From Acidobacteriota bacterium (lineage in GTDB: Bacteria; Acidobacteriota; Terriglobia; Terriglobales; SCQP01), in contig DAHUYO010000001.1 of the NCBI GenBank assembly GCA_027315185.1, positions 1 through 64,000 of the forward strand: a stretch of 64,000 nt of DNA. The letters are read 5' to 3'. Under the pieces are notes generated by a model. It had not been told where the DNA came from, did not search any database, and saw nothing but the letters and a program-made list of their open reading frames with translations. This document shows positions 23,359 through 60,000 of the stretch, piece after piece. The position numbers were made by a program, and so were the translations under genes. How positions within the stretch are numbered: the first letter of the stretch is position 1; each line of letters starts with the position of its first letter.

Positions 23359-23363
23359 GCCGC

Positions 23364-29290: not shown

Positions 29291-29292
29291 CG

Positions 29293-30744: not shown

Positions 30745-30798
30745 CTGAAGCGGTGTTTCGCGGGTGATCGGCTTTGGCAGGCCGGCTGTGCGCCGGCA

Positions 30799-31956: not shown

Positions 31957-31981
31957 GGGAAATTTGTGCACAAACTCGCGG

Positions 31982-33226
31982 CTAGAATCCGCGCTTGGCG
32001 AACAGATACGGCAACAGGAAAATCTCGACCAAGCCCGGCCAGGGGTCGCGGCGGGAAAAGACCGCTTCGGTATTCGCCCGGCGCAGGGAGCGCCAATACT
32101 CGCTCCAGCGCCGCCGGCCGGCCCAGGCATCCAGCAGGCCGACGGGCAGATCGGTGGCCAGGCGCACCCAGCGGACGCCGGTGCGAGCGCGGCCCTGGGT
32201 GGTGGGCAGGCCGAGCTGATCGGCGAACAGCAGATAGGGAAAGTCCACGCCCGCCGCCGGTCCAAGGCTGTGATACCCCCAGGTACGGCCGTTCACGTCC
32301 AGCAATTTATAGCGGCCATCGCGGGGATCCAGCTTGTACTCCATCTCCACCAGGCCGTAGTAGCCGATGGCACGCAGGAACCGCTCGGAGACTTCCTCCA
32401 GGTGTGGCGCTTCCACGGTTTCCACATAGGTGCTGGCGCGGCCGAACTCCGGGGGATGCTGGCGCAGGCGGCAGACGGTCATGCTGGCCAGCGCGCGGCC
32501 ATCCTTGAACATGGCGCAGTAGGCGAATTGCTGGCGGCCGTCGCCCGGAATCAATTCCTGGATCATGACCTCTTCGGCGCCGACCTGCGCCGAGGCCCGG
32601 CGGAAGGCGTGGTGCAGTTCCTGGCGCGAGTTGGCGCGCCACGCCTTGACCCTGGTGGCGTAGAAGAAATGCTCCTTGATGGCGGGCTTGACCACATAGG
32701 GCGGGTCGGCGGTGACGGTGTCCAACTCGTCCTCGCTCCGGACCAGCCAGGTGGCGGGGGCGGCGATATCGAGTTCGCGGGCACGGGCGTAGGTGTTGCG
32801 CTTGTCCCAAATCCACTGCACCGCATCCCAAGCGGGCGTCGGGACGCGGAACCAGGGCGCCAGTTCGGCGCGATGGCGGGACAGCGCGGCCACGGTTTCA
32901 TCGCGGGTGGGAAACACGACCCAACCGTCGAGGTCGCGGCGCCGACCGAGCTCGACCAGGGCGGCGATCGTCGCGTCTTCATCGCGCAAATTGGCGACAT
33001 GGACGGCGCCGGTCGCGTAGCGGGAGTAGCGGGCGACGGAATGCTCATTGTCGAGCACCAGCGCCGGCACACCGTGGCGGCCGAGGCTGCGGACAATGCC
33101 CAGCCCTTGATAGTCCCCGCCGATGACGACCGCGCCGGTGACGCCCACCGCGCCCGGCGTTGGCACCGGAGCGGCGGCGGAGGGGCGGGCCGGGGGTTCG
33201 GACACAGCGGTCAGGCGCATTGCCAT
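31982..33226 (-). CDS. ATP-grasp family ligase
   Basis: 414 residues. After an Ala/Pro-rich leader, GAVVIGGDYQGLGIVRSLGRHG begins the N-terminal nucleotide-like fold; PPYVVKPAIKEHFF carries the ATP-binding Lys; EEVMIQELIPGDGRQQFAY and VEMEYKLDPRDGRYKLLDVNGRTWG give the acidic magnesium ligands typical of carboxylate-amine ligases. These enzymes join a carboxylate to an amine through an acyl-phosphate. The gene overlaps the flavoprotein stop by 16 bases and is followed after 25 bases by the FemAB-like gene. The substrate is not predictable. Confidence 0.85.
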   Translation of the reverse strand: MAMRLTAVSEPPARPSAAAPVPTPGAVGVTGAVVIGGDYQGLGIVRSLGRHGVPALVLDNEHSVARYSRYATGAVHVANLRDEDATIAALVELGRRRDLDGWVVFPTRDETVAALSRHRAELAPWFRVPTPAWDAVQWIWDKRNTYARARELDIAAPATWLVRSEDELDTVTADPPYVVKPAIKEHFFYATRVKAWRANSRQELHHAFRRASAQVGAEEVMIQELIPGDGRQQFAYCAMFKDGRALASMTVCRLRQHPPEFGRASTYVETVEAPHLEEVSERFLRAIGYYGLVEMEYKLDPRDGRYKLLDVNGRTWGYHSLGPAAGVDFPYLLFADQLGLPTTQGRARTGVRWVRLATDLPVGLLDAWAGRRRWSEYWRSLRRANTEAVFSRRDPWPGLVEIFLLPYLFAKRGF

Positions 33227-34425
33227 TGGGGCGCCAGCCGGGCGCGGTAGCGAGGCGCGAAATACGCCAACAGCGCCGGTCCGGCGTACCGGGTTCCGGA
33301 GACAAACTGCATGATGGGGCCCACCGTGCGCGCCGCCGGGGCGCCGAGGATGTGCAGGCCGGGAACCGAGGTTTCAAAGCCGGGACCCAGGACCGGATAG
33401 CCCTTGACGCGGTGCACCCCGGCAACCAATCCGGGGGCAAGAAACGCGTAACGGGCGATGTCCACCTCGTAGCCGGTGCCGAGCAGCAGGTGATCCACCT
33501 GGCGATCGGTTCCGTCGCTGAGGCGCGCCAGCACACGGCCGCCTTTCTCGGCCACCGAGGTGACTTCGTAGCCCAAGCGCAGGGGAACCTCCCGCAGGCG
33601 ATCCACCAGCCAGCGGGCGCCGGCGGGGCGCACGGCGCGGCGCCAGAGGCGGTCGCGGAGGCCGCGCGGCAAGGTGTTGAACAGCGCGGGGCGGGCCAGC
33701 AACTGGCTGAGGCCGGCGGGGCCGACGTCGGTCGGTGCATAGAGCAGCTTCGGCACCAAGGATCCCATCTGGTGATGAAACAGCTTGGAGGCGCGGCCCT
33801 GCAACCAGTGGATGATGCGATCGCGGGCGATGACTTCGACTTGGGCGCCGGACTCATGCAGCAGCGCGGCCGACTCCAGCGCGCTTTGGCCGCCGCCGAC
33901 GATCAGCACGCTGCGGCCGGCGAAACGGCCCAAATCGGGATGCTCGGCGGTGTGGGAAACCAATTCGGGAGGGAGTTGGGAAAAGCGTTCGGGCCGGCGC
34001 TCGAAGCCGCGAATGCCGGCGGCGACGATGACGCGCTCGGCTTCCACCGTCTCGCCGTCGGCGAGGCGCAGGCGGAAACCGCGCGGCGCGGCTTCGACGC
34101 TGGCGACCTGGCGCCGGTCCACGCTGGGCACGGCATGGCGCTGGAACCACTCGCCGTAGGCGACAAAGCGATCGAGCGGAACCGGATAGGGCACCGCGCC
34201 CTCATCGGCGGCGAAGGCGTCCAGGCCCAACCGCGCGGCTTGCGCGGCGGGCGCGGCGATATGCGTGGCCGGCCAGTTGGAGCGCAGCAGCATACCGCGC
34301 GGCATGCTGCGCCAAAACGACATGGGCTCGCCAAAGATGCGAACCTGCAACCCGGGAATGGCAGCCAAATGGGCCGCCGTGGACAGGCCGTAAGGGCCGG
34401 CGCCAACAATGGCAATTTCGCTCAT
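33211..34425 (-). CDS. FAD/NAD(P)-binding oxidoreductase or monooxygenase-like flavoprotein
   Basis: 404 residues. IAIVGAGPYGLSTAAHLA is the FAD Rossmann motif at the N-terminus; a second Rossmann motif, LIVGGGQSALESAALL, lies near residue 170; LLLGTGYEVDIARY is the typical ATG-like motif before the C-terminal FAD contact LHILGAPAA. This layout resembles flavin N-monooxygenases and related single-chain oxidoreductases, but I do not see enough to assign an N-hydroxylase. It is the first gene of the long operon leading to the exosortase; a strong sigma-54 promoter lies 110 bases upstream. Confidence 0.85.
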   Translation of the reverse strand: MSEIAIVGAGPYGLSTAAHLAAIPGLQVRIFGEPMSFWRSMPRGMLLRSNWPATHIAAPAAQAARLGLDAFAADEGAVPYPVPLDRFVAYGEWFQRHAVPSVDRRQVASVEAAPRGFRLRLADGETVEAERVIVAAGIRGFERRPERFSQLPPELVSHTAEHPDLGRFAGRSVLIVGGGQSALESAALLHESGAQVEVIARDRIIHWLQGRASKLFHHQMGSLVPKLLYAPTDVGPAGLSQLLARPALFNTLPRGLRDRLWRRAVRPAGARWLVDRLREVPLRLGYEVTSVAEKGGRVLARLSDGTDRQVDHLLLGTGYEVDIARYAFLAPGLVAGVHRVKGYPVLGPGFETSVPGLHILGAPAARTVGPIMQFVSGTRYAGPALLAYFAPRYRARLAPQWQCA

Positions 34426-46943: not shown

Positions 46944-48587
46944 TCAGTCGCTGCGTGGACGGATGATGTTCGGGGCTGCTGCGGCGTCGGGGGCTCCGCA
47001 GGGCGACAGGGCAAGCGTGGCGGGTCGGGGCGCAAGCTCGCGGAGCAGCCCACCGAGCTGGCGGAACGGCGCCAACCCGCGGTGCAACGCGATCACCGCC
47101 GCCGCGTAGAGCGCGGCGAAGAGCGCCGTGCCCCACACCGCCCGCTCCAGCGCGCCGAATGCGCCGGGAGTGGCGGCGGATAATGCGAAGCGTGTCACGA
47201 CGAAATATGCGGCGCCGAACGCGATGCCTGAGGCGGCGAAATAGCGCCAGACCGCTGAAAGAACTGTGCCTGCGCCCAAATTGATCGGCTTGCCGGCATA
47301 CCAGAAGCCGGGGATGGCCAGGACGAAATAGGCGATGGTCCAGGCGGCGGCGACACCGCGGGGACCGAAGGGAAGCGCGGCGACGAAGAGCCCGGTCGTC
47401 AAGAGCAGCTCCACCACACCCCAACGGAGCCAGCGAGCGGGGCGGCCGATGGAGACGTGAATCCAGCCGGTGGCGGCATAGAGCAGCATGACGCCAATGC
47501 CGGGGCCGAAGAGCTGGAAGATGCGGCCCGCCTCGCCCCATTGTGGGCCCAACAAAAACCGAACCAAATCGCGGCCGACCAGAGTGAAGTCCGCGCCGAT
47601 GCCCATGCCGGCGAAGGCGACGACGCCAATGGCGCCCAGCAGATAGCGGCGGTACTGGGCCATGTCCTGGCGGACGCGGCTGAGCGTGGTGATGACGACG
47701 GACCAGACTGGGGCGGTCAACTGGTTCGCCGGCAGGACGAAGATGTCGTAGGCTTTTTTGTAAAAGCCTAGTGCCGAGGCGCTGAACCGCCAGCCGACGA
47801 GCAGGTTGTCGGTGTTGTTGATCCCGTATCCCATGGCGTAGCGGGCGTAGATCTTCAGGCCGAAAGCCAGGCTTTCGCCGGTGCCCTTCGAGCGCCCTGG
47901 CCATTTCGGCAGCCAACGGGAGGTCGCGAGCGCACCGGCGGCCCGCGTCACGCGGCTGGCAAAATAGCCCGCAACCAGCGCCCAGAAGCCCCAGCCGGCG
48001 AGAGCCAGGGCGATCGAGGCGGCGACCTGAGCGATGCGCGCTGCCACGGAGACGGATGAGGCGGTGCCGAAGCGCATGCCGCGCTGGAGGAGGGCCATGG
48101 GAACTGTGGCCAGGCTATTGATGACGATGACTCCGGCCATGGCCTCGGCGACGCCGCGGACCAGGGCGTCGTGGTAGAAGCCGGCGAGCAGGCCCCCGGT
48201 TCCCGCGAGGGCGGCCGCGAGGAGCAGGGCCCCGGCGACGTTGATCCAGAACAGGTTGCTGACCAGGCCATGGGTGATGCCTTCGCGCTGAAGGATGGCT
48301 TCGGTGAATCCGGCCATGCCGAAGCTCTCCAATAGCAGGCTGAACGTGGTGACCATGGCGACGACGCCGAAATCGGCGGGCGTGAGCACGCGGGCCAGGA
48401 CGACCATGGCGCCGAGCTGAACGGCGAAGGAAATGCCGGCGGCAAAGACGGTTGCGCCGGCGCCACGGACGGCGGCGCGGCGGAGGCCGGCTGCGAGCGC
48501 GGTTGCCTGCCGGAAGCTGCCCTCGGCGTCAAACGGCCCCACGGAGGTTCCATTGTTGCGGGCGCCCGCCGCCGACGCCGAGGCCAC
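46944..48587 (-). CDS. Wzx-type polysaccharide flippase (MOP superfamily)
   Basis: 547 residues from a GTG start, with about twelve to fourteen hydrophobic segments. VLARVLTPADFGVVAMVTTFSLLLESFGMAGFTEAI near residue 65 is the typical N-terminal text of the polysaccharide transporter family. It would flip undecaprenyl-pyrophosphate repeat units across the inner membrane. The start overlaps the polymerase gene by 59 bases; no better start is seen within the overlap. It is followed after 13 bases by a GT2 gene. Confidence 0.87.
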   Translation of the reverse strand: MASASAAGARNNGTSVGPFDAEGSFRQATALAAGLRRAAVRGAGATVFAAGISFAVQLGAMVVLARVLTPADFGVVAMVTTFSLLLESFGMAGFTEAILQREGITHGLVSNLFWINVAGALLLAAALAGTGGLLAGFYHDALVRGVAEAMAGVIVINSLATVPMALLQRGMRFGTASSVSVAARIAQVAASIALALAGWGFWALVAGYFASRVTRAAGALATSRWLPKWPGRSKGTGESLAFGLKIYARYAMGYGINNTDNLLVGWRFSASALGFYKKAYDIFVLPANQLTAPVWSVVITTLSRVRQDMAQYRRYLLGAIGVVAFAGMGIGADFTLVGRDLVRFLLGPQWGEAGRIFQLFGPGIGVMLLYAATGWIHVSIGRPARWLRWGVVELLLTTGLFVAALPFGPRGVAAAWTIAYFVLAIPGFWYAGKPINLGAGTVLSAVWRYFAASGIAFGAAYFVVTRFALSAATPGAFGALERAVWGTALFAALYAAAVIALHRGLAPFRQLGGLLRELAPRPATLALSPCGAPDAAAAPNIIRPRSD

Positions 48588-50001
48588 GGCGGGCTGGGCC
48601 TGTGCTCACTGCCCCGGCCCATGCGCCATCTCCGGCCGGGCCGGCTCCTTCTGCGCCGGCGTCAGACGCGAGCTGCGGTCTGGCAAGAATGCCGGCGGCG
48701 CAGGCGAAGGACAGGAGGAGGAAGATCCAAGCCGGGTCCAGCATGCGAAAGCCGGCCTCGGTGATGTTGTAGACCGCGACCGCGACGACCGCGGCGGGCA
48801 TCAGGGCGCCGAGCGCCGGATCGCGGGCGAAGGCGGCGGCGGCACGGCGGTAAGCGCCGAGCAACAATAGGGCGATGAGCGCGGCGCCGACCAAGCCCAA
48901 CTGGGCGTAGACCTCGATGTAGCCGTCATGGGATTCGTTGACCCAAACGCCTCGGGGTAAGAGGGCCCAGACGCGGTAGGTGTTGGTTCCCAGCCAGAAG
49001 CTCTCAAAGCCGGCGCCGAATATAGGATGGTCGGCGGCGACGTGCAGCACCGCGCCCCAGATCACGGTCCTGCCGGTGAGGTTCGACTTGCGGCCCATCG
49101 CATGCGTCACGCCCCGCTCGCCGCCCAGCCAGTAGGTTGTGGCGCCTGCGAGCAGTGCGGCCAGAACCAGGGCGTGGAGCGCGGCGGGTTTGCGGAAGGC
49201 GGGCAGGGAAATCAGCAGGAGGAGGACGGCGCCCAGGAATGCGGCGGCGATGGAGGTGTCGGAATGGGAGAGCGCCAACACCCAGACCGCGAAGCCTACC
49301 GCCGCCGTCCAGGCGATGAGTCGGCGCCGGCGGCCTGGCGCGGTCTTATCGCGGAATAACGCCAGGAGGCGCCAGAAGATGCCGAGCGCCAGGACGAACG
49401 CGATCACCCCGAGCACGTTCTTGTTCGTGGTAACGCCGGTGTTCATTTCGAGGCCGGTATGCGGGTTGTGGACGCGACCGAGGTTGGGAAAATACTTGAT
49501 CAGCATCACCGAGGCGGGCAGGAGGACGAAGCCTACGCGGGCGAATAAGCGGCGCAGGCCGGCGCTAATATTCGGTTCTGTGGCGACAATGAGGACCATG
49601 GCCAGGTCGCCCCAAGATTTGACCCAGCGCTTGGCGGAAACTTCGGTGTAGGCGGACCACAGGGTGCTCATACCGCAATAGGCGAAGTAGAGCAGGATGG
49701 GCCAGGCGAGCTTGAGGATGGGCTTGACCTGTTCGCGGCGGCGCCAGAGCACGGCTAGGCCGGCGGCCAGGAGGGCGCCGAAGACAGCGGCGTCCAAGGG
49801 ATTGCCCTCCATGATCTGCTGCGGCGTCGGATTGGCCGGGCCGACGCCGAGCCAGACAGAGACCGGACGGGAACCGATGTCCATGAGCCAGAGCGTGGGC
49901 AGCCAGAGCGCCCGCGTCACGCCCTGGGCATCGCCGCGGTCGAGGTAAAAAAGCCCGGCGACGCCGATGGCGCAGAGCAGGAGGGCGAGGTCGGGAGTCA
50001 T
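48529..50001 (-). CDS. O-antigen ligase/polymerase family (Wzy/WaaL-like) membrane protein
   Basis: 490 residues with ten or more membrane segments and a large periplasmic loop near residues 300-370 that contains SNLTGRTVIWGAVLH, HPIFGAGFESFWLG and WVNESHDGYIEVYAQLGLVG. This arrangement (Gly-Arg before a helix, His in a downstream loop) is characteristic of the WaaL/Wzy_C superfamily. Beside a Wzx flippase it is most likely the repeat-unit polymerase. The C-terminal 40 residues are Ala/Gly-rich. It starts 41 bases after the asparagine synthase-like gene. Confidence 0.87.
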   Translation of the reverse strand: MTPDLALLLCAIGVAGLFYLDRGDAQGVTRALWLPTLWLMDIGSRPVSVWLGVGPANPTPQQIMEGNPLDAAVFGALLAAGLAVLWRRREQVKPILKLAWPILLYFAYCGMSTLWSAYTEVSAKRWVKSWGDLAMVLIVATEPNISAGLRRLFARVGFVLLPASVMLIKYFPNLGRVHNPHTGLEMNTGVTTNKNVLGVIAFVLALGIFWRLLALFRDKTAPGRRRRLIAWTAAVGFAVWVLALSHSDTSIAAAFLGAVLLLLISLPAFRKPAALHALVLAALLAGATTYWLGGERGVTHAMGRKSNLTGRTVIWGAVLHVAADHPIFGAGFESFWLGTNTYRVWALLPRGVWVNESHDGYIEVYAQLGLVGAALIALLLLGAYRRAAAAFARDPALGALMPAAVVAVAVYNITEAGFRMLDPAWIFLLLSFACAAGILARPQLASDAGAEGAGPAGDGAWAGAVSTGPARRGLGVGGGRPQQWNLRGAV

Positions 50002-50042: not shown

Positions 50043-51950
50043 CTAGGCCCGGGAGTTGGTGGGCTGCCGGGCGGACTGGGCGGCGGCGAGGCCGGCGCCG
50101 GCGGGAAAGGCGGGCGCATCCGCGTCCACGAGGGCACGGTGCAGCAGCTCGAGGGACAAGAGGCGATGGATTTCGTCGGTGTAATTGCGGTCGCCCTTTA
50201 CGTGGCGGCGGACGATTTGCTCGACAGCGGCGCGGCGGAGGTAGGGGCGGGCGAGGGAGCGGGGATCGAGGAGGATCTCACGCACGTAGTCGGCCAGCAC
50301 GGTACGGAACCAGATGCGGAAATGATAGACCTTGTGGCGGCCGAGCCAAAGGCGCTCGAGATGCAGGGGGGCGAGGAAGCGATCGGCCGCGGCGACCCAT
50401 TGCGGCATGCCGTAGTCGTAGGCGTATTCGGCTTTGAACGTGAACTCGAGGTAGGCGCGCTGGATTGCGGCGAAGAAGCCTTGGCCGCCGATGCCGCGGT
50501 CGGTGCGGAGGCGCGCCAATGCCGGGCTGGCGTCTGCGGCGAGGCGGGGGCGGGGGTCGAAGTCTGAGTCCGGCGCGCGGAATGCGATTTGCGCCACCAC
50601 ATTGTCCAAAAACGGCGAGCGGATGGCCAACTGGGTTTGTTCCAGCCCCAACACGCCATAATGGTGCCAGGGCGATTGGCGAAAGGCGACGAAGCCGGCG
50701 GCGTTGCCTTCGCGGGCACGGCGGTAGGTTTCGACCGCCGCCGCGACGTGGGCCATGGCTTCCGGGGCGAATACGCCCGGCTCCGGCGCGTGCGGCTTGA
50801 ACATGACAGCGCGATTGATGATTTCGCTGCCATAGGTGCCGACCATGCGGACCGGGGCGATGCGGCAGGCCTGCTCGCTGACGTAGAGGTCCGGCACGCG
50901 GCGAGTGTCCACGCCGCCTTCGGTCAAATACATCGTCCGTTCGGCGTAATGGCGAAAGTGGGAAAGAAACGTGTCATCCACCGGGATGACCTGGTGGGAT
51001 TGGCCGCAGATCGCAGCCACGCGGCGGGCTAGTTTGACGTCCTGGTTGTCGCGATAGGCGGAGCCGTAGGTGTAGCAGGGCAATGTGCCGGGGGCTGCGA
51101 GCGGCGGTTGCCCAGCGTGCGCCGTACAGGCCTGGGCCATGATGACGCGGGTATCCCAGCCGCCGGTGAGGGAGACGCCGATTTTTTCCGGGCCTTGAAA
51201 ATAGTTGGGCAGGGCGGCGGCAAAGGCGTCACGGAGCTGGCGGTAATATTCCTCCTCGCCCAACGGCTCCTGCTCCTCCCATTCCCGCGGCTGGAAATAG
51301 CTGCCCTTTTCGATCAATTTGCCGGCGCGGAAGCGCCAAGCCGAGCCGGGGGGAAGGGCGTTGATGCCGGGGAACAATGTCCGGCCCTCGAGCGCGCAGC
51401 CGCAGGAGATGAATTCCCCGAGGGCGCGGGGATCGAAGGCGCGCAGTTCGGGGCGGACGGCGAGGATGGCCTTAGCCTCGCAGGCGAAATAGAAGCCGTC
51501 CTTGGCTTGATGGAAATAGACCGGCTGGAGGCCGAAGCGGTCGTTGAAGAGGAGGGTGGTTTGGGTGCGGCGGTCCACGGCCAGGCCGTGGAGGCGGCCA
51601 TTGAGCCGGCGGGGAAAATCGGGCTCTTCCTCGATACGGTGGACGAGGTAATCCGGGCCGTCGCCGGAGACGGCGTGGCCGCGGCGGCGAAGTTCGGCGC
51701 GGAGGCCGGGCTCGGGATATTCCTCGCCGCCGACGAGTAGGGTGACGTCGCCGGTTTCGTTGCGCAGCGGCATGCCGTCGGCGAAGGAGCCCTCGCGGGC
51801 GACCCAGCCGGCATAAACGCCGAGGCCGGCATCTACCCAGAGGCCGGAGCGGTAGAACTGCTCATGCACCAGCACGCGGCACATGGCTTCAACCTCGGCG
51901 CGGGCGGCGGCGGCGGGGCGGTTGGTGATGAGGCCAAAAATTCCGGGCAT
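50043..51950 (-). CDS. Asparagine synthase-like protein lacking the glutaminase Cys
   Basis: 635 residues. The fold is that of asparagine synthase B, but the chain begins MPGIFGLI, with Pro where the glutaminase nucleophile Cys should be, so it cannot use glutamine in the normal way. The synthetase domain keeps a pyrophosphatase loop variant, SLTGGWDTRVIM, in place of SGGxDS. Such proteins with a dead glutaminase domain occur in polysaccharide and antibiotic pathways, where they adenylate a carboxylate and use ammonia or an internal amine (as in beta-lactam synthetase). It heads the polymerase-flippase-glycosyltransferase run downstream of a tRNA gene. Confidence 0.85.
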   Translation of the reverse strand: MPGIFGLITNRPAAAARAEVEAMCRVLVHEQFYRSGLWVDAGLGVYAGWVAREGSFADGMPLRNETGDVTLLVGGEEYPEPGLRAELRRRGHAVSGDGPDYLVHRIEEEPDFPRRLNGRLHGLAVDRRTQTTLLFNDRFGLQPVYFHQAKDGFYFACEAKAILAVRPELRAFDPRALGEFISCGCALEGRTLFPGINALPPGSAWRFRAGKLIEKGSYFQPREWEEQEPLGEEEYYRQLRDAFAAALPNYFQGPEKIGVSLTGGWDTRVIMAQACTAHAGQPPLAAPGTLPCYTYGSAYRDNQDVKLARRVAAICGQSHQVIPVDDTFLSHFRHYAERTMYLTEGGVDTRRVPDLYVSEQACRIAPVRMVGTYGSEIINRAVMFKPHAPEPGVFAPEAMAHVAAAVETYRRAREGNAAGFVAFRQSPWHHYGVLGLEQTQLAIRSPFLDNVVAQIAFRAPDSDFDPRPRLAADASPALARLRTDRGIGGQGFFAAIQRAYLEFTFKAEYAYDYGMPQWVAAADRFLAPLHLERLWLGRHKVYHFRIWFRTVLADYVREILLDPRSLARPYLRRAAVEQIVRRHVKGDRNYTDEIHRLLSLELLHRALVDADAPAFPAGAGLAAAQSARQPTNSRA

Positions 51951-52065: not shown

Positions 52066-52141
52066 TGGAGCCGGCGGGGGGGTTCGAACGCCCCGTCTCC
52101 CGAAAACGATTCGGTCGCTCTGCCCATTGAGCTACACCGGC
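52066..52141 (-). tRNA. tRNA-Thr (anticodon CGU)
   Basis: The cloverleaf folds on the minus strand. Acceptor GCCGGTG (52141-52135) pairs with CGCCGGC (52076-52070), discriminator T and encoded CCA follow. D arm GCTC/GAGC, five-base variable loop and T loop TTCGAAC are present. The anticodon loop reads A-U-CGU-U-U. Unusual points: a U at position 37 where a purine is expected, an A-G pair at 27-43 and a C-C at 52-62, so reduced function is possible. The gene lies between the FemAB-like/GNAT gene and the second asparagine synthase homologue. Confidence 0.8.
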
Positions 52142-52156: not shown

Positions 52157-53350
52157 CTACGAACCGCGGCTCTCGCTGTCGGTCGTCCCTGCGACCGCGG
52201 GCGCGGTCCGCGGCGGGCTGGCTGGCCTCGATCGGCGCATCAGGCCTCGTCCGCGCAGGGCGAGTCTGACCGCCCAGGGCGGGAGAATTCCCAGAAGCCC
52301 CTTGTGCAAACCCAGGCGCAGGGCCAGCCGCCCGCGCAGGGTCAGGGGAACATAATAGCGCGGGATCAGGATTTCCGAGAAGCCGTTGCGCAGCTTAAAT
52401 TCGCGTAGCGAGCCCTCGCGCTTGTTGCCGTAATTGAGCTGGCCGTAGACAAGGTGCGGAATCTTTTCGTCCGCGCAAAGGCGTACGACTCGGGCCAGAA
52501 TGGCGTTGGCGGGGCGCTTGTCAGCGTGGCTGGGGCGCGTCAGGGTGGTCAATACGGAAGCGAATGTGCCGCAATGGACGATCTTCATGTAGCCGATCAG
52601 TTCGCCGGCGTGGTAAGCGCAGACGTACCAACTGCGGTCAGCGAAACTGATGTGGTCCTTCCAAACTTCTTCGATCCCGCGGCCGAAAAAGCGCGACTTC
52701 TTACCCTGCACCACGGGGCATTCGTCGTTCACGGCCTTGATGCCGCGGATTAACTCGTCGTCCAACCGCTGGACGCGGAGCTCAACGCCGCGGCGCTCGG
52801 CGCGGCGGACATTCTTGCGCGTTTCCTGGGGCAGCGCCGCCCACCAGGCGTCGGACGTCTCCAACTTCAGGGCGGCGACGCTGACGGACTCGAACGGGTA
52901 GGGGAATCGGGGCTGGGTGTCCGGCAGGCGCTGCGAAAATGCGAACAGGTCGGCACGGCGGCTGCCGACTCGCCGCCGGCGCAGCGCGGCGACCCAGGGC
53001 TCGGGATCGGCCAGACCGGCCGGGGCGAAGTCTTCGTCGCGGATCACGGCCGTGCGCAGCCAGCGCCCGCGCAGGAACACCGCCGTGTCCCCGGACGCTA
53101 GGGCCGGGACAATTTGCCAGCGGCCCGAAGTCGCGACCTCCGCTTGGCGCGGCTCGATCCGCTGGCCCGCCGCCGCGATCTCCGCCTCGCACGGCTCGAC
53201 CCTCCGGTCCGTGGCGGGCGTGGACGCCTCCGGGGGCGCCGCTTCGCCGGCGCGGGTTTGCCCCTGCTCCGTCAGCGCCGCCGCGTGGCCGGGGCCGCCC
53301 GCGGTGGCCGCGGCCGCGCGGTGGCCGTTGGTTTCCGCGGGGCGGGTCAT
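52157..53350 (-). CDS. GNAT-fold N-acyltransferase (FemAB-like)
   Basis: 397 residues. The first 75 are low complexity with a short internal repeat (RVEPCEAEIAAAG and RIEPRQAEVATSG). The rest shows WWAALPQETRKNVRRAERRGVELRV, SWYVCAYHAGELIGYMKIVH and HLVYGQLNYGNKREGSLREFK, typical of FemAB/GNAT proteins of polysaccharide loci that acylate or aminoacylate a sugar. The start is fixed by an ATGA overlap with the carrier-protein gene, which suggests that the carrier-bound acyl group is its donor. The product ends 16 bases before the tRNA gene. Confidence 0.8.
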   Translation of the reverse strand: MTRPAETNGHRAAAATAGGPGHAAALTEQGQTRAGEAAPPEASTPATDRRVEPCEAEIAAAGQRIEPRQAEVATSGRWQIVPALASGDTAVFLRGRWLRTAVIRDEDFAPAGLADPEPWVAALRRRRVGSRRADLFAFSQRLPDTQPRFPYPFESVSVAALKLETSDAWWAALPQETRKNVRRAERRGVELRVQRLDDELIRGIKAVNDECPVVQGKKSRFFGRGIEEVWKDHISFADRSWYVCAYHAGELIGYMKIVHCGTFASVLTTLTRPSHADKRPANAILARVVRLCADEKIPHLVYGQLNYGNKREGSLREFKLRNGFSEILIPRYYVPLTLRGRLALRLGLHKGLLGILPPWAVRLALRGRGLMRRSRPASPPRTAPAVAGTTDSESRGS

Positions 53351-53610
53351 CTAGGGATCGTCCTGGGGCCGCCTTCGGGGACGGTGGCACCGCATCGCGC
53401 TAGGAGTGCGCGGATGGCGGCGAGGTTGCGAAAATTGTCCGGGACGATGTCGGCGACGTCTATAAAAATCTGGTAGCGCTCCTCGAGGGAGGAGACGAGG
53501 GTGATTAGGCCAAGCGAGTCGAGCACGCCTTGGGCGAAGAAATCCCCGACTTTGGGGTCGCCGAGGCCCGGGCGCAGGGATTCGAGGAAATGGGCGAGGT
53601 CGTCGGTCAT
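53347..53610 (-). CDS. Free-standing acyl carrier protein
   Basis: 87 residues. The phosphopantetheine attachment site is Ser32 in FFAQGVLDSLGLITLVSSLE, followed by the helix III text typical of carriers. It overlaps both neighbours by four bases (ATGA), FkbH-like upstream and GNAT downstream, so the three are made in step. In known pathways an FkbH protein loads glyceryl or related C3 units onto such a carrier; the GNAT could then transfer the unit to a sugar. Confidence 0.88.
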   Translation of the reverse strand: MTDDLAHFLESLRPGLGDPKVGDFFAQGVLDSLGLITLVSSLEERYQIFIDVADIVPDNFRNLAAIRALLARCGATVPEGGPRTIPR

Positions 53611-55301
53611 AAGGCCGGTACCAGGGCAGGCGCGGTGGCTTCGACTGTGATGAACTCAGGGCGGGAGATGCGCGCGAGGCTGAGGGCAGCGCCCGCGCCG
53701 CTGTATTTACCGGCGAAGAAGCGCCGGGCGGGTTCGTTTCGCGGTCCCTCGGTGGCGGGGGCGACAATGGGCCCAGGGCCGAGCTCCCGGGCACGCTCGA
53801 CGATGTAGGCGAGGATGGCCTCCTCCACGCACTTACCCATAACGCGGCAGCTCATGACGAAATCGGTGATTCTGACCCCGCCATTCTCCGCGGAGAGGCT
53901 GGCCAGGGCGGCCAGGCCGAAGTCACCGAACCGGTCGGCGATGTGAAACACGTAGACCGAGTTCCCGGGGCGGCTCGCCCACGCGGCGAACGCGTTTTCC
54001 TCGGCCCGACGCAGGGTCAGATTGAATTGATTGGTCTTGTTTAGGAGCTGGGCGGCGCGCGGGAGCGAGGAGGGGTCTAGAGGCGAGGCGCGAACCCGGA
54101 GGTCGAGCGACGCCAGCCAGCTATTGACGTCGGCGCCCGGGCTGGCGGCGGCGCGGCGGTCGCGTTCGGCCTGGTAGGCGGCCGTGCGCTGGGCGTCCTC
54201 GGCGCTGATGGTCGTGGTCTCGAAGCAGTCAAGAGCGGTGATCAGGGGCGCGATGGCGGCGGGGGAGGCGGGACAGTCGGGGACGAGGACGTCCGGAAGC
54301 AGCGCGCGCACCTGGTCGCGTTCCTCGGGGCTATCGTCCAGGAAGACGAAGGAGTCGAGGCCGAGGTTTAGCTCGGCGGAGAGGGAGCGGAGGTTGTCGG
54401 CCTTCTGCTCCCAATTGATGCGCCAGGCAGCGAAATCGCCGCGGCGAAGGGACATGCCCGGGTGGCCGTCAATTACGGAGAAGGCGTGGTCCTCGTCGTT
54501 CTTGGAGCAGATGGCCAGGAGCAGGCCGCGGTTACGCAGCGCCTTCAGCGCCTCCTGGGCGGCGACGAAGCACTCGCCCACAGGGTCGGGCGCCTGGAGG
54601 CGGATCCCAGCTGCGCCGTCCTCGCCGAGGATTCCTCCCCAAAGCGTGTTGTCGAGGTCGCAGACCACGACTTTTCGGGACCGGCCGAGCGCGCCGCGGA
54701 GCGCGGCCTTGATTTCGGCGGCGGCCTTGCCGAACATCGCGGGCGTGTACATCACCTTCGCGACCGCGTACATTCGGGGGTCGTGCGAGGGCTTGGAAAG
54801 GCTCGACTGCCAGTGGGCCGCGTCGAGCATCAGGATGTTCCGCTGGCCGGCCCATGCGTCGGCGAGGGCGAGGTTGGCACGCGCGAGGAGGTTCGCGATG
54901 CCGCCGTGCCGCCAGGTCATGGACTGGACCCACCGCTCATGGGCCGGGAGAATCCAGCTGGGAACGATCGTCAAACGCACTCGCTGTGCGGCTGCGGCAA
55001 CGGCGGCGGCGAATTCCTTGGCCTCGGCGACGACGGCCTCAGGGTCGGCGCTCTGGAACCTGAGGGCGGCGTTGAGGCTGGGGAGCGTGAGCTGCGGTGA
55101 GGTCCACACAGCCAAGTAGTCCGGTTCCGGCTGCCACGCGGGATGGGATGGGTCCATCAGAATCTGGTAGACCTGGCCGTATGGCGCGGCGGCGGCGTCG
55201 AGCGTGGGCCCGCCGGGCGCCTGGGCCAGTGCCGCGGCGAGCGGGTCCAGGGTGGTGTCGCCGACGAGCAGCAGGCGGCGGGGATTGGGGGTTCCGTCCA
55301 T
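53607..55301 (-). CDS. FkbH-like HAD-IIIC protein
   Basis: 564 residues. An N-terminal SGNH-like region is followed near residue 215 by the HAD motif VVVCDLDNTLWGGILGEDG, with DDSPEERDQVRALLPDV further on, and a C-terminal GNAT-like part containing LNKTNQFNLTLRR and DRFGDFGLAALA. FkbH proteins take 1,3-bisphosphoglycerate, remove phosphate and load glyceryl onto an acyl carrier protein in polyketide pathways; lactyl or related loading is also known. Coupled by ATGA to the ACP gene and placed five bases after the AAC(3)-like gene. Confidence 0.9.
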   Translation of the reverse strand: MDGTPNPRRLLLVGDTTLDPLAAALAQAPGGPTLDAAAAPYGQVYQILMDPSHPAWQPEPDYLAVWTSPQLTLPSLNAALRFQSADPEAVVAEAKEFAAAVAAAAQRVRLTIVPSWILPAHERWVQSMTWRHGGIANLLARANLALADAWAGQRNILMLDAAHWQSSLSKPSHDPRMYAVAKVMYTPAMFGKAAAEIKAALRGALGRSRKVVVCDLDNTLWGGILGEDGAAGIRLQAPDPVGECFVAAQEALKALRNRGLLLAICSKNDEDHAFSVIDGHPGMSLRRGDFAAWRINWEQKADNLRSLSAELNLGLDSFVFLDDSPEERDQVRALLPDVLVPDCPASPAAIAPLITALDCFETTTISAEDAQRTAAYQAERDRRAAASPGADVNSWLASLDLRVRASPLDPSSLPRAAQLLNKTNQFNLTLRRAEENAFAAWASRPGNSVYVFHIADRFGDFGLAALASLSAENGGVRITDFVMSCRVMGKCVEEAILAYIVERARELGPGPIVAPATEGPRNEPARRFFAGKYSGAGAALSLARISRPEFITVEATAPALVPAL

Positions 55302-55306: not shown

Positions 55307-56281
55307 CTAGTTCTTCGCCCGCCCGTAGACCGTGATGCCCTCGCGGGCGGCGGCGATGAGGCGCGCGGTCAGGGTGCCCGCGTCAGCGACCATGAACATG
55401 GGCACCCCGTGGAAGCGCCACTCGCGGAGCTCTTCTCGCGATAGCAGGGACCACAGCACTGTTAGGTCCAGGCTTGCTTTCGTCTTTCCGCTGCGGTCGG
55501 GTACGCCCAGGCGGTAGGGGAGGCGCGCGCCCGCCCGGTCCACGAGCGTCACTTCGACGGTTTGGCCATCGCGGCCGTTGCCGGTGGCGGGAAACTCGTC
55601 GCCCATCTCGGCGGCGGCGGTATGGGCGTGCGTGAGACAGCGGAAGTATTCGACTCCCAGGCCCAGGATAACGGTTCGATGCCGCGTCATGAAGCCGAAC
55701 GGCGTTCCGGGCCCTATGCCATTGGCGGCGTGGTAGTGGCCGGCGGTCATCTGGGCGGCGTGCGGGCCCTGCGCGGAGATGCTGCAGGTCGGGTGTAGAC
55801 TGCGCTCAACCCCCGGGGATCTCCGGAAGACCTCCGTGATGATCCCGACCTCGGACGGGGTCCGCCGGACGTCAAAGGGGCGGGAGGCGAAATAGCCTGC
55901 AACGTCTTGGCTAGGCCCGCCCATGACGAAAGCGGGCATCGCGATTGTCCGCTCAGGGCCGGCCAATTCGCGCAGTGCCGCTATCACGTCCTGGGGGGTC
56001 CCCTTGAACATCGGAAGCATCTGGTCGTAGGCCGAGTGAACCATCAAGATGTCGAAATCCGCCGGCAGGAGGGGGCGGAGGTGGGCCACGAGGTCCGCGC
56101 GGTCGAATGTTCCGTGGATGGCCCTTAGGGCTGGTTCGACCCGTTTGCGCGCCGCGCCCTGGAGGGCCTTGAGGCGGACCCGCTGCCCCGGGCTGAGGCC
56201 CGCGCGAAGCAGCTTGCGTATCGCCGCTCGCGCCTGGACCCGGGTTCTGTTCGATGCCGCCATTGAATTTGCCGCCGCCAT
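55307..56281 (-). CDS. AAC(3)-family N-acetyltransferase-like protein
   Basis: 324 residues. DFDILMVHSAYDQMLPMFKGTPQDVIAALRELAG, TIAMPAFVMG, and RSLHPTCSISAQGPHAAQMTAGH are the signature segments of the aminoglycoside 3-N-acetyltransferase fold; the HP-S-G-H text contains the catalytic His. In polysaccharide loci, such proteins act on amino sugars rather than antibiotics. ATG 56281 lies 19 bases after the aminotransferase stop; an ATG at 56263 is an alternative. The open frame further upstream runs antisense-like through the aminotransferase gene and is not coding. Confidence 0.85.
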   Translation of the reverse strand: MAAANSMAASNRTRVQARAAIRKLLRAGLSPGQRVRLKALQGAARKRVEPALRAIHGTFDRADLVAHLRPLLPADFDILMVHSAYDQMLPMFKGTPQDVIAALRELAGPERTIAMPAFVMGGPSQDVAGYFASRPFDVRRTPSEVGIITEVFRRSPGVERSLHPTCSISAQGPHAAQMTAGHYHAANGIGPGTPFGFMTRHRTVILGLGVEYFRCLTHAHTAAAEMGDEFPATGNGRDGQTVEVTLVDRAGARLPYRLGVPDRSGKTKASLDLTVLWSLLSREELREWRFHGVPMFMVADAGTLTARLIAAAREGITVYGRAKN

Positions 56282-56300: not shown

Positions 56301-57551
56301 TCAGACCCGCGCGGCCACGGCGCGCTCGGGCGCGGCGGTTTCCGGCGCGTGCTTGGCCGGCGCGCCGAGATGGGCGGCGATGGCGGCGACGGTGGCGGTG
56401 ATTTGCCCGTCGGTGAGCTGGGGGAACATGGGGAGGGACAAGATGCGCTGGGCGGCCTGCTCGGTGCGGGGCAGGTCGCCGGGGCGATAGCCGAGGCCGG
56501 CGTAGGCGCGCTGCAAATGGAGCGGCACGGGGTAATGCAGGCCGGTGGCGATGCCGGCGGCGGCGAGGGCTGATTGCAAGCCGTCGCGGTCCGGGACCTG
56601 GACGACATAGAGATGGAAGACGGGGCGGCTGGAGGCGGGAACGTGGGGCGGGATGACGGCCGGGGCCAGGGGGCGGAGGAGTTCGGTGTAGCGGGCGGCG
56701 TGGCGGCGGCGGGCGTCGTTCCAGGCGGGCAGGCGGCGGAGCTTGGCGGAGAGAAAGCCGGCTTGGAGGGAGTCCAGGCGGCCGTTGTAGCCCTCGAAGT
56801 CGTGGTAGTACTTTTTGGACTGGCCATGGTCGCGCAGCATGCGGACGCGGCGGGCCAGGTCGTCGTCATCGGTGGTGACGGCGCCGCCTTCGCCGCAAGC
56901 GCCGAGGTTCTTGCCGGGATAGAAGCTGAAGGCGGCGAGGCGGCCGATGGAGCCGGCCTTGCGCCAGCGGCCCTCGCGCGCGGAGTGGACTTCGGCGCCG
57001 TGGGCTTGGCAGGCGTCCTCGACGACGGTTAGGTTATATTCCTCGGCGAGTTCGAGGATGGGGTCCATGTCGGCGCATTGACCGAACAGATGCACGGGGA
57101 CGATGGCGGTGACGGGACGATTGGTGCGGCGGTGGATGGTCCGGCGCAGGCGCTGGTCGAGAACGCACTCGCGCTGGAGAAAGTCGCGCAGCAGCTCGGG
57201 GTCCAGGTTGAAGGTGCGGGGATCAATGTCCACGAAGAGCGGGCGCGCGCCGGTTTGGCTGATGGCCTCGCCGGTGGCGATGAAGGTGTTGGCGACGGTG
57301 AGGACGGCCTCGCCGGGGGCGACGCCGGCGGCGATGAGGGCGAAGCGCAGGGCGTCGGTGCCGCTGTTGACGGCGATGGCGTGGGATGCGCCGCAGTAGG
57401 CGGCGAAGTCGCGCTCGAAGTCCTCCACCAGCGGGCCGCCGATGAAGGATGCGCCGCGCAGGACGGCGCGAGTGACGGCCAGGAGTTCTTCCTCCATCTC
57501 CAGATGGGGAGCGATGAGATCCACAAATGGCACGGCGTGGGTTGGGTTCAT
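56301..57551 (-). CDS. DegT/DnrJ/EryC1-type sugar aminotransferase
   Basis: 416 residues, PLP-dependent. VPFVDLIAPHLEMEEELL opens the protein; NSGTDALRFALIAAGV binds phosphate, VVEDACQAHGAEV holds the cofactor Asp, and the PLP Lys is in FSFYPGKNLGACGEGGAV. The C-terminal part has FHLYVVQVPDRD and GLHYPVPLHLQ. It would convert a 3- or 4-keto nucleotide sugar into an amino sugar. With the MocA-type oxidoreductase and the hexapeptide acetyltransferase nearby, it resembles the WbpB/WbpE/WbpD set that makes UDP-3-acetamido sugars. Its start overlaps nothing but its own ATG is shared with the ChbG-like stop as ATGA. Confidence 0.9.
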   Translation of the reverse strand: MNPTHAVPFVDLIAPHLEMEEELLAVTRAVLRGASFIGGPLVEDFERDFAAYCGASHAIAVNSGTDALRFALIAAGVAPGEAVLTVANTFIATGEAISQTGARPLFVDIDPRTFNLDPELLRDFLQRECVLDQRLRRTIHRRTNRPVTAIVPVHLFGQCADMDPILELAEEYNLTVVEDACQAHGAEVHSAREGRWRKAGSIGRLAAFSFYPGKNLGACGEGGAVTTDDDDLARRVRMLRDHGQSKKYYHDFEGYNGRLDSLQAGFLSAKLRRLPAWNDARRRHAARYTELLRPLAPAVIPPHVPASSRPVFHLYVVQVPDRDGLQSALAAAGIATGLHYPVPLHLQRAYAGLGYRPGDLPRTEQAAQRILSLPMFPQLTDGQITATVAAIAAHLGAPAKHAPETAAPERAVAARV

Positions 57552-58312
57552 ACGATTTCCTTGAGGCGAAGTGACCTGGCCGAGACGGTCGCGGGCGGGA
57601 CAGCGGGACGGCCGAGCAGGGCGAAGACCGCGCCTTCGGTCAGGAATGCGTACTCGGCGCGGTTGACCGGATGGGTTTCCACCTCCACCGACGCGGCGGC
57701 GGCAAGCGCCGCGATGTTCCGCAAGCGTTCCGGGTATAGCGGCGGCAGGGAGAAGAAATAGTCGGTGAGGGGGTGGCGGCGGGCGAGCCAACGGTCGCCG
57801 AGGCGGCGGAACCAGCGGTTGGCGGCGCTCTTTTCTCCGGGGGCAAAAGAGAAGTTGCGGCGGGCGGCAACGCCGGCGGGCAGCAGCCCGGCGAACTGAA
57901 CATTGGCGCAGAGGTGCATGTGGTGGTGGCCATCCACGCGCGCGGGCGGAGCGCCGTAGAGGCGCTCGAACTCATCGAGCTGGGCGCGAACGACCCAGGC
58001 AAAGTCGCGCGCTAGGCCGGGGTGGTAGACCACGGGGGCGAAGCGGCTGCCGCGCAGGAAGGCGGCGATGCGGCGTTGGCGGGAGGCCAAGTCCGCGAGG
58101 ACGTCCGGGCCGTCGAAGGGGGTTGTGAGGTTTAGATGCAGTCCCGCGTCCAAGTTCATTTCCCGGGCGGATGCAGCGGCCTCTTCGGAACCGGCCATGA
58201 AGACCATCGCGCTGACGGAGGAAAGCGCTCCGAGGCGCGCGCAGTCGCGGATGCAGGATGTGGTGGCCGCGTCGCGGCCCCAATCGTCGGCGTTGAGGAT
58301 GAGCTGGCCCAT
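57548..58312 (-). CDS. ChbG/YdjC-like carbohydrate deacetylase
   Basis: 254 residues. LILNADDWGRDAATTSCI has the catalytic and metal Asp pair, DAGLHLNLTTPF a metal His, and VDGHHHMHLCANVQF the other His ligands; ETHPVN appears near the end. The family removes N-acetyl groups from sugars such as chitobiose. It lies seven bases after the acetyltransferase gene, so addition and removal of acetyl groups are encoded side by side. Confidence 0.88.
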   Translation of the reverse strand: MGQLILNADDWGRDAATTSCIRDCARLGALSSVSAMVFMAGSEEAAASAREMNLDAGLHLNLTTPFDGPDVLADLASRQRRIAAFLRGSRFAPVVYHPGLARDFAWVVRAQLDEFERLYGAPPARVDGHHHMHLCANVQFAGLLPAGVAARRNFSFAPGEKSAANRWFRRLGDRWLARRHPLTDYFFSLPPLYPERLRNIAALAAAASVEVETHPVNRAEYAFLTEGAVFALLGRPAVPPATVSARSLRLKEIV

Positions 58313-58319
58313 GGGGCGG

Positions 58320-58976
58320 TTACCGCGCGGTTCCCGCGGCGTCCCGCGCCGGGTCGAGATAGCGCAGCAGCTTGGCGGGGTTGCCGGCGACGATGGCGCG
58401 GGGCGGGACGTCGCGGGTGACGACGCTGCCGGCGCCGACAATGGCTTGCTCGCCGATGGTGACGTTGGCGAGGATGGTGGCGCCGGAGCCGATGGAGGCA
58501 CCGGCCTTGACGATGGTTTTTTCCACCTTCCAGTCGGCCTCGGTTTGCAATTCGCCGCCGGGGTTGACGGCGCGGGGATAGGTGTCATTGATGAAGACGA
58601 CGCCGTGGCCGACGAAGACGCCGTCCTCGATGGTGACGCCTTCGCAGACGAAGGTATGGCTGCTGATTTTGCAGTTGGCGCCGATGGCGGCGTTCTTCTG
58701 CACCTCGACGAAGGCGCCGATCTTGGTGTTGCCGCCGATGGAGCAGCCGTAGAGGTTGATGAACTTGGAGAGCTTGACGCCGGGGGCGAGGCGGACGTCG
58801 GGGGCGATGGCCAGCCATTGATTGGCGCGGGCCCCAGCGCGGCTGCGCCGCGCGTCCCGCTTCGGCTGATAGGCGCGGGCCCCAGCCCCGCCGGGGGCGG
58901 GGCGTCCGGCGCGCCCAAGGCGCTGGGCGGCGCGCGGGGGCGCGGGGCGCTTCGCTGGTTTTGCCGGGCGTTTCAT
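58320..58976 (-). CDS. Left-handed beta-helix (hexapeptide) acetyltransferase with repeat-derived N-terminus
   Basis: 218 residues. From about residue 58 the hexapeptide pattern is clear: IAPDVRLAPGVKLSKFINLYGCSIGGNTKIG and so on, with FVCEGVTIEDGVFVGHGVVFINDTYPR and AIVGAGSVVTRDVPPRAIVAGNPAKLL near the end, as in WbpD-type UDP-sugar N-acetyltransferases. The first 57 residues are Arg/Ala/Pro-rich and are encoded largely by two copies of the dispersed hairpin repeat (58824-58862 and 58872-58910), which read through in frame as ARAYQPKRDARRSRAGARAN. No start codon between the repeats and the conserved part is in frame. Confidence 0.87.
   Translation of the reverse strand: MKRPAKPAKRPAPPRAAQRLGRAGRPAPGGAGARAYQPKRDARRSRAGARANQWLAIAPDVRLAPGVKLSKFINLYGCSIGGNTKIGAFVEVQKNAAIGANCKISSHTFVCEGVTIEDGVFVGHGVVFINDTYPRAVNPGGELQTEADWKVEKTIVKAGASIGSGATILANVTIGEQAIVGAGSVVTRDVPPRAIVAGNPAKLLRYLDPARDAAGTAR
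58824..58862 (-). repeat. Dispersed hairpin element, copy 3, within the acetyltransferase gene
   Basis: In minus orientation: AAGCGGGAC, hairpin GCGCGGC-GCA-GCCGCGC, then TGGGGCCCGCGCC. Aligned with copy 5 at 60104-60142 it shows one mismatch in 39 bases. The stem differs entirely from copies 1, 2 and 4 yet still pairs. Confidence 0.8.
58872..58910 (-). repeat. Dispersed hairpin element, copy 4, within the acetyltransferase gene
   Basis: Begins 48 bases after copy 3 in the same orientation. It shares the GGCGCGGGCCCCAGC end (plus-strand view) with copy 3, but its stem is CCCCGCC/GGCGGGG with a GGG loop, like copies 1 and 2. Copies 3 and 4 together form an imperfect tandem pair of 48-base period, which keeps the reading frame. 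Confidence 0.75.
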
Positions 58977-58995
58977 GGTTGGCCGTGGCGGCGGG

Positions 58996-60000
58996 CTAGA
59001 GTTCGACGAGCTGGCCGCGCTGGCAGAGGGACTGATCGGCGGCGGCGAGCATGCGGACCACTTCCAGGCCGGCCTCACCGCCGTTGTGCGGGGCTTCGTC
59101 GCGCTCCAGGCAGTCGAGGAAGTAGTTAAGTTCGGTGGTCAGCGCCTCGCTGGGCTCGACGCGCGGCGCCCACATGTCGCCGGAGCGGTAGCTGACCAGA
59201 AGCTGGTAGATGCCCTGGCCGTTGCCGACGTCCACGCCCTTGTCATAAACCTTGACCTTTTCATCGGCTTCGAGGTCATTCCAGACAACCATTTTCTTTT
59301 CGCCGCCGATCAGCGTGGTGCGGACCTTGACGGGCGAGAGCCAGTTGACGTTGATGTGGGCGATGACGTTGTCGGGATAGTAGGCGGTGAGGTAGGCGAC
59401 ATCGGCATGGCCGTTGAGATGGTGCTGGCCGGTGGCGACGACGGCCTGCGGCGGGCGGCCGATCAAGTGGGCCATGATCGAGAGGTCATGCGGGGCCAGG
59501 TCCCAGAGGACGTTGACGTCATGCTGGAACAGGCCGAGGTTGACGCGGGTGGAGTCGTAGTAAAAGAGCCGGCCGAGGGTGCCGTCGCGGAGCAGCTCGC
59601 TGATTTTGCGCACCGCGCCGGTGAAGAGGAAGGTGTGGTCCACCATGATGTGGCGGCGCTTGCGCGCGGCCAGCTCGATGAGGCGTTGGCCCTGCTCGAC
59701 GGTGGAGGTGAAGGGCTTTTCGACGAAGACGTGCTTGCCGGCCTCCAGGGCCGCCTGGGCCAGCTCGAAATGGGTCCAGACCGGGGTGATGACCGCGACC
59801 ACGTCCACGTCCGGGGAGGCGATCAGCTCGGCGGCGTCGGAGAGGAGGCGGACGCCGGGATTGTCCCGCGCCGCGCGCTGGCGCGCCTTCTCGCTGCCGT
59901 CGCAGATGGCGGCGACGCGGGAACGCTCCAGCTTCTGCAAATTGCGGACGACGTTCGGTCCCCAGTAGCCGTAGCCGATGATGCCAAAACCGATTTTCAC
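58996..60000 (-). CDS. Gfo/Idh/MocA-type nucleotide-sugar oxidoreductase
   Basis: 334 residues. GFGIIGYGYWGPNVVRNL binds NAD(P); HVFVEKPFTSTVEQGQRL has the family EKP motif; VNVLWDLAPHDLSIMAHL carries the catalytic Asp-His pair. Likely a 3-dehydrogenase acting on a UDP-sugar, supplying the keto-sugar to the DegT aminotransferase three genes on (a WbpB-like role). The start at 60000 follows a 211-base spacer that carries hairpin copy 5. Confidence 0.9.
   Translation of the reverse strand: MKIGFGIIGYGYWGPNVVRNLQKLERSRVAAICDGSEKARQRAARDNPGVRLLSDAAELIASPDVDVVAVITPVWTHFELAQAALEAGKHVFVEKPFTSTVEQGQRLIELAARKRRHIMVDHTFLFTGAVRKISELLRDGTLGRLFYYDSTRVNLGLFQHDVNVLWDLAPHDLSIMAHLIGRPPQAVVATGQHHLNGHADVAYLTAYYPDNVIAHINVNWLSPVKVRTTLIGGEKKMVVWNDLEADEKVKVYDKGVDVGNGQGIYQLLVSYRSGDMWAPRVEPSEALTTELNYFLDCLERDEAPHNGGEAGLEVVRMLAAADQSLCQRGQLVEL

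Follow-up and report, generated by a model that had tools for sequence, protein, structure and literature searches.

The 64,000-nucleotide stretch analysed here (the window) is the start of contig DAHUYO010000001.1 in a metagenome-assembled genome (MAG) of a soil Acidobacteriota bacterium (3.77 Mb, 86% complete), and its polysaccharide operon raises the question of which enzyme uses the acyl group that an FkbH protein would place on an acyl carrier protein (ACP). The FkbH, ACP and GNAT genes of this operon are joined by two 4-base ATGA overlaps, FkbH/ACP at 53607-53610 and ACP/GNAT at 53347-53350, and a preliminary description had read them as a locked unit in which the GNAT moves a glyceryl or lactyl group from the carrier to a sugar. 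Coordinates and profile matches confirm the three genes and both overlaps, and no polyketide synthase gene was found adjacent to them, as that description had said. The neighbours that matter, absent from it, are an AAC(3)-like acyltransferase gene before FkbH and a tRNA-Thr gene after the GNAT. Here it is proposed, as the probable explanation, that the GNAT is a FemX-like enzyme which attaches threonine, delivered by a dedicated tRNA, to the polysaccharide, and that the glyceryl module is separate.

A FemX-like GNAT in polysaccharide loci

The GNAT (52157-53350, minus strand) matches only PF13480 Acetyltransf_6 (25.6 bits against a cut-off of 22) and gave no match to the PF02388 FemAB profile. 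A search of PDB sequences with the protein alone found no match, and one with its profile found weak single-domain GNATs only. An AlphaFold (AF2) model from a 38-sequence alignment (pLDDT 83.6, with residues 1-54 of low confidence) has a double-GNAT FemX-like fold; its top Foldseek matches in the PDB are Sbb17/Sba18 (synthases that modify streptothrisamine with the help of aminoacyl-tRNA), then Weissella FemX, and then MprF and A-/L-PGS, with E of 1.6e-11 to 8e-11 and query-normalised TM of 0.44-0.49 to Sbb17 and FemX. All 52 homologues keep Lys319, which lies in an FK motif; the catalytic lysine is Lys305 in FemX and Lys329, next to Phe328, in DhpH-C (PMC12945691). It is proposed that the GNAT works like FemX, though it is not a sequence member of PF02388, and that it is a threonyl-tRNA-dependent transferase. 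Despite the low-confidence N-terminal residues of the model, the start of the gene is credible, because its ATG is the sole ATG/GTG/TTG in the first 75 codons and the GC content at third codon positions is 0.95 across codons 1-55.

Homologues of the GNAT are present in 43 of 299 genomes of the class, and a plasmid search found none. In the 48 GNAT neighbourhoods (loci are given here by L numbers and genomes by G numbers), an asparagine-synthetase-like gene usually follows and Wzy and flippase genes are near, and FkbH and ACP occur only in L088. The GNAT closest to that of the window is in L047 (51% identity), a locus without FkbH. Tandem GNATs, one of the tRNA-linked clade described below and the other of another clade, stand side by side in L049 (8308-10304) and L047 (1387-3245).

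A non-canonical tRNA-Thr family

A tRNA-Thr(CGU) gene with encoded CCA was found by ARAGORN at 52066-52141 (minus strand), 15 nucleotides downstream of the GNAT stop. It has the lowest score (42.1 bits) of the 41 tRNAs in its genome, which has canonical tRNA-Thr genes (GGU, UGU and CGU) elsewhere; genes with CGU and UGU are likewise present in the complete genome G370. The family has 13 complete copies (the window, L047-L055, L058, L135 and L246, the last found later), and all of them have an extra pyrimidine bulged from the T-stem, GGRG-Y-G. Of all cells, 99.5% are paired in the bulged reading and 91.4% in the canonical register, which pairs 66% of the T-stem cells in the family. Three sequences show a compensatory A-U/G-C change in the bulged reading, and this reading is the predicted minimum-energy fold in 4 of 5. 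The canonical register was rejected, with one pair never formed in 10 sequences and another failing in 7.

Positions 52-53 are YG in 13 of 13 family copies, compared with GG in all 31 tRNAs checked from the source genome of the window; in G370, these positions in the other tRNAs are GG or AG. U33 is replaced by C or A in 5 of the 13 copies, and the D-loop GG is missing from nine. The features kept in the family are G1-C72, C2-G71, G35-U36, U73 and the encoded CCA, with C, A or U at position 34. As judged from these sequences, the threonine identity elements are kept, and the tRNA-Thr is apparently a dedicated donor tRNA.

Linkage of the tRNA gene to the GNAT

ARAGORN found a tRNA gene at the GNAT in the window, in L047-L058 and in L135, and also in L080 and L086. 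Within a GNAT clade of 100% support, the tRNA lies beside or overlaps the GNAT gene in all 15 members (13 with tRNA-Thr, and two with a decayed tRNA-Thr plus a tRNA-Cys). The tRNA of L059 is partly masked by N, and L135, which branches just outside the 15-member clade, is also tRNA-linked. On the GNAT tree this linkage (label T) takes 3 changes, compared with 12.5 when shuffled, and it is conserved under two phylum labels, of which the one for L135, Verrucomicrobiota, comes from a MAG bin and is possibly wrong. A role as random neighbour was rejected, with all 14 ARAGORN tRNAs in 789 kb of GNAT loci lying near a GNAT end, whereas the control FkbH loci (632 kb) have five, scattered and of random type.

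A covariance model built from ten tRNA copies was searched against 399 genomes; ten of them scored 89-103 bits, and the next matches were ordinary tRNAs at 78.5 bits or less, the top matches of which include none at a GNAT. Nine of the ten genomes hold training copies; the tenth, G370, was held out and lies outside the GNAT sample, and in it the tRNA overlaps the end of a GNAT gene, which is followed by an asparagine-synthetase-like gene. In a 199-genome sample of the phylum, no copy of the special tRNA was found outside the class. About 20 tRNA genes of low score are also densely packed into 4 kb of G370 (C1:1228477-1232305), as on a mobile element.

Two further arrangements were found. In L056 (8775-10030) and L057 (8780-10069), the tRNA-Thr at the 3' end of the GNAT has decayed and an intact tRNA-Cys flanks the gene on its 5' side, which suggests a switch of amino-acid donor. 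In L048 (9966-10048), L050, L051, L052, L053 and L058, the GNAT frame runs through the entire tRNA and stops 8 nucleotides past it, so maturation of the tRNA would cut the GNAT mRNA. Near GNATs of other subgroups there is a tRNA-Gly with C33 in L080 (8837-8912) and a tRNA-Asn in L086 (1870-1945), possibly further dedicated tRNAs. Searches of the open-access literature on tRNA genes within polysaccharide clusters turned up nothing that resembles the tRNA-GNAT arrangement.

The AAC(3)-FkbH-ACP triad

FkbH (53607-55301, minus strand) consists of a BF1531-like N-terminal part (3slr BF1531, E 6e-45), a HAD-IIIC domain and a C-terminal FkbH region, and matches TIGR01686 at 265.9 bits against a cut-off of 146.65. 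Residues D215, D217, S266, K300, D322, D323 and C485 are invariant among five FkbH proteins. The HAD active site, whose inactivity the preliminary description had named as fatal to its reading, is intact in sequence, with all HAD motifs and the invariant Cys485 present. The FkbH of the window apparently is active and is proposed to be a glyceryl-ACP synthase. Of the earlier view of the FkbH-carrier pair in a polysaccharide operon, the active FkbH and the glyceryl group stay plausible, and the part without support is the use of the carrier by the GNAT. The ACP (53347-53610, minus strand; PF00550, 23.6 bits against a cut-off of 20.8) appears active too and has the phosphopantetheine Ser32 within LDSLG, and D31-S32 are invariant in nine FkbH-linked ACPs.

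The AAC(3)/FrbF-like acyltransferase gene (55307-56269, minus strand; PF02522, 107.5 bits) lies 5 nucleotides upstream of FkbH. The best profile match of its product in the PDB is FrbF (3sma, 51.5 bits), and the motif RSxHP..S..A.G is kept. The order AAC(3)-FkbH-ACP is conserved in the window, in a second genome of the order (L088) and in the Verrucomicrobiota-labelled contig (L135), with H159 of the AAC(3)-like protein invariant across the three. Identities among the triads are 55-58% for the AAC(3)-like proteins, and the window ACP shares 49-50% identity with its counterparts in the other two triads, compared with 15-23% with those of other FkbH loci. The FkbH proteins closest to that of the window are in L135 (58%), L088 (56%) and L136 (53%), the last paired with a different type of ACP and lacking an AAC(3) gene in the 1.2 kb of upstream contig. 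In a tree of 53 FkbH proteins, the three AAC(3)-linked ones form one side of a branch with a support of 87, and with L136 they form a fully supported set. Apart from that of the window, the class (399 genomes) has a single close AAC(3) homologue, which belongs to the triad of G254.

The ATGA "locking" is not conserved. FkbH and ACP are 22 nucleotides apart in L088, where one gene, for a glycosyltransferase, stands between the ACP and the FemX-like GNAT, and three genes separate the two in L135; the GNATs of these two loci are just 36-37% identical to that of the window. The partner that stays with FkbH and ACP is the AAC(3)-like gene, and its subfamily was found only with that pair (3 of 3). 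The AAC(3)/FrbF-like enzyme, and not the GNAT, is the better candidate, judging by gene order and conservation, for the user of glyceryl-ACP, and acyl-ACP rather than acetyl-CoA is proposed as its donor because the gene is conserved next to the ACP.

Alternatively, FkbH may load the carrier and another enzyme of the operon, such as the hexapeptide acyltransferase, may use the acyl group, or the acid may be another C3 acid such as lactate. This is possible, although somewhat doubtful. The window does encode a hexapeptide acyltransferase, and FkbH-ACP elsewhere sits with hexapeptide, MBOAT or other GNAT acyltransferases, so that partners are exchangeable; however, many loci that lack FkbH also conserve the hexapeptide, DegT and Gfo/Idh genes, whereas the AAC(3)-like gene keeps to FkbH-ACP.

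Proposed function and alternative explanations

From the gene content and its conservation, the odd tRNA family and its linkage to the GNAT, the match in fold and the joint occurrence of AAC(3), FkbH and ACP, we infer the chemistry, the acceptor, the charging by threonyl-tRNA synthetase (ThrRS) and the exclusion from the ribosome or EF-Tu. The locus would encode two separate side-chain systems for one surface polysaccharide. In the first, FkbH would dephosphorylate 1,3-bisphosphoglycerate and move its glyceryl group onto the carrier, from which the AAC(3)/FrbF-like enzyme would transfer it, in the cytoplasm, to the amine of a sugar precursor. In the second, the dedicated tRNA-Thr would still be chargeable by ThrRS and probably poor for translation, and the GNAT would transfer its threonine to an amine of the polysaccharide precursor.

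Several points weigh against this proposal. The TM-scores are modest (0.48 query-normalised and 0.65 target-normalised, with a root-mean-square deviation of 5.6 A), and K319 was matched to the catalytic lysine by motif and invariance rather than by structure-based residue alignment or superposition on FemX. Most group-2 GNATs keep the same lysine and have no tRNA gene, and therefore the GNAT family as a whole does not need a dedicated tRNA. The tRNA copy of the window keeps U33 and the D-loop GG. As for the glyceryl module, the identity of the ACP-bound group rests on the family to which FkbH belongs, AAC(3)/FrbF enzymes are known to use acetyl-CoA, so that use of an acyl-ACP would be new, and the triad is known from three loci, one of them on the possibly mis-binned MAG contig of L135.

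It is improbable that the tRNA is incidental, whether as an integration site, as a tRNA-like signal in the mRNA for processing by RNase P or as a decaying second copy of a normal tRNA-Thr. Decay in L056 and L057 would fit this, but there it comes with a new tRNA-Cys. The loss of U33 in several copies would fit as well, whereas the acceptor stem, the CCA, the anticodon G35-U36 and the common T-stem bulge are kept. The GNAT frame that crosses the whole tRNA in six loci also favours an incidental tRNA; against it stand the linkage throughout the clade and under two phylum labels, the tRNA-dependent fold of the neighbouring protein and the few tRNAs, of random type, in the control FkbH loci. The use of a glyceryl or lactyl group from the FkbH-loaded carrier by the GNAT, which the ACP/GNAT overlap in the window and the FkbH-ACP pairs beside other, unrelated GNATs (L137, L138 and L095) would favour, was rejected as improbable, given that nearly all genomes hold the GNAT family without FkbH/ACP (1 of 48 neighbourhoods has them), that order and adjacency are lost in L088 and L135, and that the fold matches are aminoacyl-tRNA-dependent transferases and the clade is tRNA-linked.

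Amino-acid amides are common on bacterial polysaccharides, but their amino acids are often activated in ways that are unclear. If the threonine transfer proposed here is true, activation would go through a tRNA encoded in the operon together with a FemX-like enzyme, the anticodon would allow the amino acid to be predicted, and a tRNA gene family would apparently be kept for glycan synthesis and not for translation. The triad of FkbH, ACP and AAC(3) would provide another way of activation, taking glyceryl from a glycolytic intermediate into glycans and not into polyketides. More generally, and with rather less assurance than for the window itself, it seems likely on balance that bacterial polysaccharide operons have private non-translational tRNAs, linked to or overlapping a FemX-like transferase, that solely deliver an amino acid to a glycan (threonine, cysteine in some lineages, and perhaps glycine or asparagine), and that a different amino acid comes into use when the tRNA gene is replaced by another.

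Comparison with known systems

The GNAT has a fold and, as judged by motif, the FK lysine in common with FemX/FemABX and relatives, including Sbb17/Sba18, BD-12 Orf11 (acting on streptothrisamine), DhpH-C, PacB and VlmA. Among these, Orf11 forms an amide on the aminoglycoside-like streptothrisamine using Gly-tRNA, and the review that describes it mentions no tRNA gene in such clusters (PMC12945691). Unlike these relatives, the GNAT of the window belongs to a polysaccharide operon with Wzy and flippase and has its own tRNA gene adjoining. In Staphylococcus aureus, three non-proteinogenic tRNA-Gly genes feed the cell wall (pentaglycine bridges, through a FemABX enzyme) and have changed G18G19 and T-stem pairs, which fits weak binding to EF-Tu (PMC4052509). 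The tRNA-Thr likewise exists in addition to the canonical isoacceptors and beside a FemX-like enzyme; its family has the T-stem bulge in 13 of 13 copies and lacks the D-loop GG in nine, the window copy being one that keeps it. It differs in its amino acid (threonine or cysteine instead of glycine), in the gene being linked to or overlapping the transferase, in the bulged T-stem and in its polysaccharide locus.

Pairs of FkbH and ACP that load glycerate are known from polyketide pathways such as that of tetromadurin (Mad7/Mad8 and Mad14/Mad12, PMC7489565). The pair of the window resembles these in having an FkbH and a stand-alone ACP with all catalytic residues, and differs in lacking ketosynthase and methoxymalonate genes, in its AAC(3)/FrbF-like partner and in its glycan operon. 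The AAC(3)-like protein shares the family (PF02522) and the RSxHP core with AAC(3)/FrbF, from which it is distant, and the acyl-ACP donor is the proposed difference. A D-glyceroyl amide on an amino sugar, the same type of product as proposed here, exists in nature in the O-antigen of Pragia fontium 97U124, as cited in PMC10609480. Full-text searches of open-access literature on FkbH in connection with O-antigen, or with both glyceric acid and polysaccharide, returned no paper, and the papers searched gave no link between the glyceroyl substituent and FkbH.

Operon content and the asparagine-synthetase-like partner

The operon runs, on the minus strand, in the order Gfo/Idh, hexapeptide, YdjC, DegT, AAC(3)-like, FkbH, ACP, GNAT, tRNA-Thr, asparagine-synthetase-like, Wzy and flippase. 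It includes a Gfo/Idh sugar dehydrogenase (58996-60000; PF01408, and NF040723 UDP-GlcNAc 3-dehydrogenase with a score below the cut-off), a NeuD-like hexapeptide sugar N-acetyltransferase (58320-58991; PF00132), a YdjC-like deacetylase (57548-58387; PF04794), which is a possible source of the free sugar amine, and a DegT-type sugar aminotransferase (56301-57650; PF01041, 362.6 bits). Downstream of the tRNA are the asparagine-synthetase-like gene (50043-51950; PF00733/PF13537), a Wzy_C polymerase/ligase (48529-50001; PF04932) and a polysaccharide flippase (46944-48587; PF13440).

The asparagine-synthetase-like protein lacks the glutaminase cysteine (MPGI). Proline replaces the catalytic Cys2 in nearly all of 41 homologues and is invariant in 21 aligned sequences, with such Pro2 homologues spanning the window and L047-L094, and other asparagine synthetases in the same loci keep MCGI. 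Foldseek matches of its model are TsnB9, AsnB and beta-lactam synthetase. The partner should bind ATP without using glutamine, and so it may join a carboxylate to an amine; it probably makes a further amide. A second cluster in the window (22369-34425) has an ACP-thioesterase didomain, an acyl ligase, a FemAB-like (TIGR03019-like) protein, an ATP-grasp protein and an asparagine synthetase, and would be another carrier-protein pathway.

FkbH-ACP pairs at other loci

The occurrence of FkbH and ACP without a polyketide synthase, which the preliminary description had singled out, is real at this locus and unexceptional. Across 123 FkbH loci, a gene of the ACP cluster immediately adjoins FkbH in about 60%, at position +1 in 57 and at -1 in 20, some of the latter being fusions. 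Other acyltransferases beside FkbH-ACP include MBOAT O-acyltransferases, accompanied by an unassigned protein of 350 residues (Pseudomonas, Acetobacteraceae and Paraburkholderia), and two other GNAT groups. From these counts and partners, FkbH-ACP without a polyketide synthase is considered frequent and its acyltransferases exchangeable.

The source genome has two further FkbH genes, one of which is followed by an ACP and a hexapeptide-type acyltransferase. This second FkbH-ACP pair is in L014 (13781-16216; contig C111:103781-106216), about 50 kb from the first. Pairs beside an MBOAT (PF03062) and a 350-residue protein without a Pfam match, read as SGNH/AlgJ-like, are found in L181 (5135-10018), L142, L155, L159, L175, L184, L192, L199 and others, and these loci look like a Dlt-type export acylation system with FkbH replacing DltA. 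Finally, MaoC/SDR genes stand directly before FkbH in L138 (2893-5792) and L141 (5530-8698), which suggests additional processing of the ACP-bound group at some loci.

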